From NCBI RefSeq assembly GCF_016132445.1, contig NZ_CP046056.1, forward strand, positions 2,101,501 to 2,165,500: 64,000 nt of DNA, in the 5' to 3' direction. The notes under the pieces were generated by a model. It was not told where the DNA came from and searched no databases. It worked only from the letters and a program-made list of their open reading frames with translations. The translations under genes and the position numbers were made by a program. The first letter of the stretch is position 1; each line of letters opens with the position of its first letter. Shown in pieces: positions 15,314 to 52,262 of the stretch. The DNA comes from Venatoribacter cucullus (lineage in GTDB: Bacteria; Pseudomonadota; Gammaproteobacteria; Pseudomonadales; Oceanobacteraceae).

Positions 15314-16110
15314 ATGCCAGCCTTGCAGGCTGGTTTAGCTGCCACTGCGTGGCAGCTTATGCGGGGCTCCGCCCCCGCGCCCCGATTGCGAGGAACTTAT
15401 CCTCGCGCTCCAGCTTTGCGCTGTATAGCACGTATCCCTCATTCACCGTCATTGCCGACGGCCACGGATCGTAAGGCACGTCCTGTGCCACGATCCTCGC
15501 CCGGAATCATCCGGGCGGACCTGTCAATGACGATTCATTTCGGCGTGCTATAGGCGCGGTTAAAACCGCAGCGGCTACGCCGGAAAGGCTTTCTTGGGCG
15601 TGCTACGCACACAAAAAACGAAAACCGAAAACTCTTCCGGCCGAAGGCTGCGAAATAACGTTCAAGTTGCTGCGGTTTTTCCCCGGCCCATTCGGACTAG
15701 CCCGACGTTTGGCAAAGCCAATAGCATCGTTTGGATGATTCCAAACGAGCGGGTAAGGGCATGGACAATTTTGTTGGAACAAAATTGAACAGCCGAAGGC
15801 TGGCCCGCAGGGCGAAAGGCAGGATGCCTGAAGTCTCCCCCCTATGGCCGCGTATGCGTCATTGGCTTTGGTAAACGAGGCAACGACCAACGGGAGTAAC
15901 AGCCGCAGGCTGGCCCGAAGGGCGAGCGAAGCGAGTAACCAGCTGGAACGCGGGCCAGAGAGGATTGTAAGGAGACCCCTCTTCTTACATTGGGGCTCAG
16001 GGCCGGTTTTTGCTCCTGCAAAACCGGCATTTCCACCATCCATGGCGGTAGCGGAGCCCCGCATCAGCTGCCACGCAGTGGCAGCTAAACCAGCCCGGCA
16101 GGGCTGGCAT
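15314..16110 (-). mobile_element. Hairpin-array element, copy A (non-coding, about 0.8 kb)
   Basis: This 797-bp stretch has imperfect terminal inverted repeats of about 59 bp (15314-15372 against 16052-16110, both reading ATGCCAGCC inward). Between them is a chain of short hairpins: 15317-15333, 15388-15406 (GCGAGGA/TCCTCGC), 15466-15496 (GGATCGT/ACGATCC enclosing GGCAC/GTGCC), 15600-15610, 15727-15748 (9-bp stem), 15766-15787 (10-bp stem, 2-nt loop), 15967-15988 and a GC-rich one at 16002-16028. It is related to copy B (51400-52161) in the opposite orientation. The strand is given as the direction in which uraA transcription would enter it; its right end is 6 bp after the uraA stop. No convincing gene is present: the long minus-strand open frame (15603-16172) runs through the hairpins. 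Confidence 0.8.
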
Positions 16111-51391: not shown

Positions 51392-51399
51392 CCAGCACT

Positions 51400-52161
51400 G
51401 TACGCCAGCCCTGCCGGGCTGGTACGGCCGCCGCTACCGCTGCTGGCCTTTTGCGGGCTCCGCCCGCGGACTATGCAAGGGGAGGTATCCCCTTGCGAAC
51501 CCCTCTGGCCCGCGTTCCAGCTGATCCTCGTTTACAAAAGCCAATTAAGCATACGCGGCCAAGGGGGAGACTTCAGGCATCCTGCCTTTCGCCCTGCGGG
51601 CCAGCCTTCGGCTGTTCAATTTTGTTCCAACAAAATTGTCCATGCCCCTACCCGCTCGTTTGGAATCATCCAAACGATGCTATTGGCTTTGGTAACCATC
51701 GGGCTGGAACGAATGGGCCGGGAAAAACCTCAGCAACCTGAATCGCTTTTGGCGGCCTGCGGCCGGAAGAATTTTTGGGTTTTGGGTTTTGGGTTTTGGG
51801 TTTTGGGTTTTGGGTTTTGGGTTTTGGGTTTTGGGTTTTGGGTTTTGGGTTTTGGGTTTTGGGTTGCGCGAAGCGCACCAAAAACGGTGCCGGCGTAGCC
51901 GCTGCGGTTTTATCCGCGCCTATAGCACGCCGAAATGAAGCGGCATTGGCAGGCCCGCCCGGATGGACCGGGCGAGGATCGTGGCGCACGATGCGCCTTA
52001 CGATCCGTGGCCGCAGGCAATGACGGTGAATGAGGAAATACGTGCTATACAGCGCAAAAGCAGGGGCGTGGGGATAAGATCCCCACATCCGGGGCGCAGG
52101 GGCGGAGCCCCGCATCAGCTGCCACGCAGTGGCAGCCAACCAGCCCAGCGGGCTGGCGTAC
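51400..52161 (+). mobile_element. Hairpin-array element, copy B (non-coding, about 0.76 kb)
   Basis: It is bounded by the inverted repeat GTACGCCAGCC (51400-51410) and GGCTGGCGTAC (52151-52161). It is related to copy A throughout its centre, in the opposite orientation on the map. Hairpins include 51475-51496 (GCAAGGGGA/TCCCCTTGC), 51617-51638, 51656-51677, 51865-51877, 51976-52006, 52068-52086 (GTGGGGA/TCCCCAC) and 52140-52156. It contains a 13-unit TTTTGGG array at 51773-51863. The strand given is that of the upstream gene. No gene is credible in it. Beyond 52161, up to the DUF4442 gene, lie two more short palindromes (GCAGGCT/AGCCTGC near 52200) and nothing coding. Confidence 0.8.
51773..51863 (+). 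repeat. 13 tandem TTTTGGG heptamers
   Basis: Thirteen perfect units of TTTTGGG (91 bp). Runs of GGG spaced by TTTT form an ideal G-quadruplex pattern on the plus strand and in RNA transcribed from it. Copy A has only a short degenerate counterpart (CGAAAA-type units around 15612-15632), so the number of units varies between copies. Confidence 0.95.
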
Positions 52162-52262
52162 ATAATGCCAGGTCAGCCCGGCAAGGCTGGCATAACAGCA
52201 GGCTGGTAAGCCTGCACCCTCTCCCCTAAACTAGCCAAAATTAAGCACAGGACTATTTCCAA

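Follow-up and report, generated by a model that had tools for sequence, protein, structure and literature searches.

Copies A and B, two inverted repeats in the 64-kb window (the whole stretch of DNA analysed, 64,000 nucleotides), are probably members of a non-coding, MITE-like repeat family whose payload is a back-to-back pair of domains related to TwoAYGGAY RNA, kept as folded strands. Both copies share the homologous core domain and its conserved pairing, and the paired changes between them are real evidence of kept folds, beyond chance. The observation itself is real. It is stronger than a reading of the sequence alone could establish, and it belongs to a wider arrangement. Table 1 lists the features of both copies.

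Table 1. Features of element copies A and B in the window
Feature	Position	Strand	Remarks
Copy A	15314-16110	+	Bounded by the outer palindromes; encodes no convincing protein
Copy B	51399-52190	-	Inverted relative to A
Left terminal inverted-repeat arm, A	15321-15378	+	Short palindromes; 58 nt, 90% complementary to 16045-16102
Right terminal inverted-repeat arm, A	16045-16102	+	Partner of 15321-15378
Left end hairpin, A	15388-15406	+	GCGAGGA-ACTTA-TCCTCGC
Left end hairpin, B	52068-52086	-	GTGGGGA-TCTTA-TCCCCAC (read 52086-52068)
Structured domain U*, A, outward	15418-15557	-	Degenerate TwoAYGGAY relative; R1 75.6 bits, E 3.5e-16
Structured domain U*, B, outward	51916-52055	+	Degenerate TwoAYGGAY relative; R1 69 bits, E 1.3e-14
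Second loop hairpin of U*, A	15475-15489	-	Minus strand GGCAC-AGGAC-GTGCC; helix 5; stem covaries with B
Hypervariable centre, A	15558-15690	+	Contains hairpin 15600-15610; enclosed by AACCGCAGC / GCTGCGGTT
Structured domain V, A, outward	15706-15877	+	Closing stem found; split by inserted module
Inserted hairpin module, A	15765-15836	+	AATTTTGTTGGAACAAAATT...GGCAGGATGCC; within V hairpin; also occurs across the order
Right end hairpin, A	15967-15988	+	GTAAGGAGA/TCTTCTTAC, one G-T; conserved in congeners
Second mobile double-hairpin module, A	16003-16049	-	CCATGGATGG + GCAGGAGC loops
Domain V, B	51526-51700	-	Split by the same module as V of A, at about 51568-51639
Right end hairpin, B	51475-51496	-	GCAAGGGGA/TCCCCTTGC

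We re-read both copies from the sequence. The five hairpins described in an earlier note on this DNA have the coordinates and pairings it gave them, and all seven two-sided changes that it counted between A and B are correct. Besides the end hairpins, the stem at 15475-15489 is GGCAC/GTGCC in A versus GGCGC/GCGCC in B, the stem at 15600-15610 is GTGC/GCAC versus GCGC/GCGC, and a T-A pair in 15317-15333 of A is C-G in B. Two further stem versions of the left end hairpin of A are found in congeners. No protein-coding, tRNA or Rfam-threshold feature accounts for the region of A and B; a search of the window copies for a group II intron, a tRNA or another Rfam family gave none, and a plasmid or phage origin of the element was rejected as no match was found. 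Copy B is situated between two convergent genes. Its centre carries tandem CCCAAAA units at about 51773-51876 on the minus strand (AACCCAAAACCC...), and at the corresponding point of other copies the A-rich CCAAAA runs are shorter.

Nucleotide and pattern searches located at least 14 copies of the element, A and B included, in the 2.83-Mb genome of the window (G000). R1 is a covariance model built on the outward strand of 14 sequences, all from cousins and none from G000; 15 of its 27 pairs show compensatory changes. R1 finds exactly two sites in the 64-kb window, the U* domains of A and B, with the next match at E 0.28. It recognizes U* in all 14 copies of this genome, and a weaker V-side match in the opposite direction in 10 of them and in the rearranged locus L068; the V-side match is lacking in A, B, L055 and L064, where a module interrupts V.

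Two-sided Watson-Crick alternatives are seen at 23 predicted pairs among the 14 copies, and consensus folding of 59 aligned U domains reveals compensatory changes throughout. We then considered a 77-row alignment of the core domain, composed of own, cousin and other-genus loci, in which two-sided variation affects 23 of the 27 pairs. Paired cells amount to 94.8% in this alignment versus 31–38% with slid structures. The covariation score is 0.545 versus 0.05–0.07 with partners slid by 1–3 columns, and none of 500 shuffles (which ignore kinship) reaches it. Since the alignment was fitted to the structure of the model, these figures lean towards that structure, and the stronger arguments are the slid controls and the replacement of sequence between genera: other genera have a like architecture with a different sequence. 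Helices 1 and 2, long-range helices with arms more than 100 nt apart, covary as well, and covariation of stems persists where the GGA loop is gone.

TwoAYGGAY (Rfam RF01731) is a probable RNA of unknown function (PMC2864571) in which CsrA-binding sites have been predicted (PMC4333381) and whose helices have been extended by covariation (PMC11701678; PMC7657543). The cousin domains match RF01731 on their outward strand, and many exceed the gathering cut-off of 43 bits (L175, 51.2 bits; L162, 48.8; L150, 48.3; L155, 48.0). A and B are below the cut-off and give no match; the best copy of their own genome, L059, scores 39.8 bits, near the cut-off, and the uninterrupted V of other own copies is found by R1. 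Congeners possess both AYGGAY-type hairpins; each U* domain of the window has kept a single GGA loop out of two, the second in A (ACAGGACGU) and the first in B (AUGGAC). The secondary structure of the A/B core is homologous to the TwoAYGGAY domain, as seen from the R1 matches and the 77-domain covariation. Because A and B score below the cut-off and retain one of the two loops each in U*, we call them degenerate relatives and not members of the family. Among 294 genomes of the order, 45 contain RF01731, mostly in several copies each. Like the described RNA, the congener domains have an outer stem that bears a pair of neighbouring hairpins, their loops of AYGGAY type; they lie on the same strand and exceed the curated score. 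They differ from it in arrangement: the literature describes a lone RNA, whereas here divergent pairs lie inside a multi-copy element, with A and B degenerate. In the literature searched, TwoAYGGAY is not linked to transposable elements.

Divergence is the rule for these pairs. All 20 pairs of domains within 600 bp of each other point outward in four genomes of the genus (G000, 9/9; G003, 4/4; G008, 5/5; G002, 2/2), as do all nine two-hit loci in other genera of the order. R1 applied to loci from a GTDB motif scan gives 13 divergent loci in Pseudomonas; the exceptions among the scanned loci are a tandem array (L321) and extra matches in L309 and L325. A strict regular expression for the AYGGAY double hairpin returned 8 divergent and 4 tandem pairs from 80 GTDB loci, the tandem ones all within one array; it was too insensitive and was superseded by R1. 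Each of three congeners contains 14–28 domain matches.

The congeners also give evidence of mobility. Five other genomes of the genus have 18–28 matches each to the end of the cousin family. Their elements are alike in architecture, with the middle sequence largely replaced, and are bounded by CACTGCTGTCCCACAGTTT or TAATGCTGTTCACTTAA, inverted ends of IS4 type that autonomous IS4 elements have as well. In G007, autonomous elements with these ends encode IS4-family transposases (L190/L192 and L194). Target duplications of 9–12 bp (at least 80% match) flank 22 of 33 congener elements or IS copies with both ends, 10 of them perfectly, versus a mean of 1.1 and a maximum of 6 for shuffled pairings. 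Empty sites rebuilt by joining the flanks are mostly bidirectional intrinsic terminators (A-run, hairpin, T-run), and the duplication restores a terminator at the flank; one autonomous G007 element likewise lies in a terminator, with an 11-bp duplication. The element at L113 in G006 occupies the terminator of a gene, a terminator that is uninterrupted in G002 and G008 (L110, L111). L069 (G008) and L072 (G003) share a site at which the core is inverted between colinear flanks, possibly by recombination between the inverted arms. With their shared ends, duplications and autonomous partners, the congener elements can be read as IS4-type MITEs. In G005, another member of the genus, CACTGCTGTCCCACAG ends number more than 100 and hardly differ from one another. 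Many of them lie at contig edges, and the picture suggests that this IS4 end type proliferated recently.

The window genome differs from these relatives. Neither IS4 end type occurs in G000 beyond chance-like matches with three mismatches, and A and B are without them. Reading the flanks of the own copies, A and B included, revealed no target duplication; the single DDE_Tnp_1 match in G000 belongs to the IS5 family, and PF01797 (Y1 transposase) has no match. Since IS4 ends and Y1 are lacking and the sole DDE_Tnp_1 is of IS5 type, the copies in G000 represent a related lineage, and the evidence for mobility is that of the congeners only. For copy A, no precise empty site was found in relatives because their neighbours beside the permease differ. 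Mobilisation of the IS200/605 or REP type, prompted by the end hairpins, was rejected on the absence of a Y1 transposase from G000. We also rejected a clean cargo island inside a copy (L152/L263), as no second half was found within 19.7 kb and the copy is just truncated. In L263 (positions 1-1200; G003:C1, about 1147900), this truncated copy adjoins a gene for a 716-aa protein, and the protein has a weak PADLOC match.

The mismatched pairs bear on whether folding matters in RNA or in DNA. With domains unoriented, G-T and A-C are equal over all pairs, but this count mixes two domains on opposite strands. On the outward strand, with the two loop-closing A-Y positions left out, G-T exceeds A-C by 36 to 12 when cells are counted; crude events give 22 versus 12 (p=0.12, not significant). 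Since the loop motif and the mild G-T excess both fall on the outward strand of each domain, folded RNA is tentatively favoured over DNA, and these sequence features lend modest support to folding as RNA (or as one particular DNA strand). A has no promoter-like site, and its centre no sigma-70 promoter. Pairing could instead be kept at the DNA level, with hairpins of single-stranded or supercoiled DNA recognized by a recombinase or host factor and the RNA incidental. Consistent with this, pairing is also kept in palindromes that lie beyond the TwoAYGGAY domain, namely the end hairpins, terminal arms and central hairpins, sub-hairpins occur in both orientations within copies, the whole core can flip, and G-T equals A-C before orientation. 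We nevertheless consider this explanation unlikely, given the outward-strand loop motif and G-T excess, the absence of an HUH (Y1) transposase from G000 and the DDE IS4 type of the congener transposases. DDE IS4-type transposases are not known to need a subterminal hairpin.

Part of the covariation has another origin. The copies in G000 are 650–800 bp long and are assembled from palindromic modules in the order terminal arm, left hairpin, domain U, hypervariable centre, domain V, right hairpin and other arm. Modules of about 50–70 bp are inserted at differing points in differing copies (in A and B, one each within a V hairpin), so that the A/B difference is partly block exchange. The left hairpin exists in this genome as two haplotypes only, in 9 and 5 copies, and its unpaired flanking bases change along with the stem; it thus moved as a unit, which makes a single event of its two paired changes. 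L059 carries a mixed form of the right hairpin, GTAAGGGGA/TCCCCTTAC (recombinant or intermediate), indicating that the two pairs of that hairpin vary separately. The seven A/B changes are therefore not seven independent events. Double-hairpin modules with CATGGATG and CAGGAGC loops (window 16003-16049, 15765-15836 and 51568-51639) recur across the order at many insertion points, as if these small modules were mobile in their own right. Like hairpin modules (AAATTTGTCAGGAACAAATTT + CCGCAGG + CCCGAAGGG + CATGG hairpin) also lie within an apparently repetitive coding region of G038 (L088, 300-1130).

Such exchange could be taken further, to a reading in which folding is under no selection and both arms change together through arm-to-arm copying by template switching or through whole-module exchange. 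The two block haplotypes with their linked unpaired changes, the shuffling of modules and inserts between copies and the existence of inverted modules all agree with it. It is distinctly improbable, however, as helices 1 and 2 covary across more than 100 nt, the same architecture recurs with different sequence in other genera, and several standard pair types occur per position, beyond the reach of block exchange. The earlier note had explained the paired changes by selection on folded RNA or DNA cruciforms, or by a copying mechanism that acts on them, and had staked this on covariation in further copies. Six sub-families and several genera do show strong covariation; the proposal held up in this test and is supported in part, with RNA tentatively favoured. 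Block exchange between lineages of the element accounts for some of the A/B difference.

About as improbable is that the elements simply replace the terminators they interrupt, their strong hairpins serving as transcription terminators or 3'-end stabilisers for flanking genes: this fits the congener insertions with their restored terminators and the position of B between convergent genes, but it leaves the conserved loops and the multi-helix domain without explanation, and terminator-like sites inside A are at chance level (2 versus 1.4 expected).

We therefore return to back-to-back domains kept as folded strands. Each domain lies on the strand running from the centre to an end of the element, U* leftward and V rightward, and would work as a folded single strand, most likely RNA, for which the paired changes are kept. 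Because the domains diverge, a transcript crossing the element from either side, or starting from its centre, would end with one sense domain whichever way round the element is inserted, and could be stopped by the split terminator present at either flank. Judged by the loop motifs and the predicted sites (PMC4333381), the hairpin loops may present GGA to CsrA/RsmA. As stems covary where the GGA loop is lost, an account by CsrA only is weakened. In the window genome, the family has probably lost its IS4 ends, many loops appear to be in decay, and IS4 has probably ceased to mobilise the copies.

The element combines traits of several known systems. With IS4-family MITEs, the congener elements share non-coding content, IS4-type ends common to autonomous IS4 elements, 10–12 bp duplications and high copy number; their conserved structured RNA domains and their insertion into bidirectional terminators set them apart, and the window copies are without IS4 ends. 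REP, BIME and REPIN sequences with RAYT (PMC2817692, PMC3116915) are likewise intergenic palindrome mosaics in many copies, but this genome has no Y1/RAYT protein, and the element is 650–800 bp long with a fixed multi-domain plan. Sponge RNAs of the CsrB/RsmZ type also present several GGA hairpin loops on one strand; here the candidate loops are dispersed in many copies by transposition.

TwoAYGGAY RNA and IS4 MITEs are thus known kinds, and their combination in divergent, terminator-targeting elements appears to be undescribed in the literature searched. We put forward, tentatively, that gammaproteobacterial TwoAYGGAY RNAs might largely be cargo of IS4-type miniature transposons which target terminators and distribute CsrA-binding RNA through the genome as divergent pairs, so that a transposon family would tune, or be tuned by, the global post-transcriptional regulator of its host, borrowing host terminators to finish its RNAs. 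As this repeat family illustrates, covariation can reflect in part selection on the fold and in part exchange of modules. An orphan Rfam family gains a physical context (paired, mobile and inserted in terminators), and the suggested link between TwoAYGGAY and CsrA becomes testable in culturable bacteria, several Pseudomonas included.
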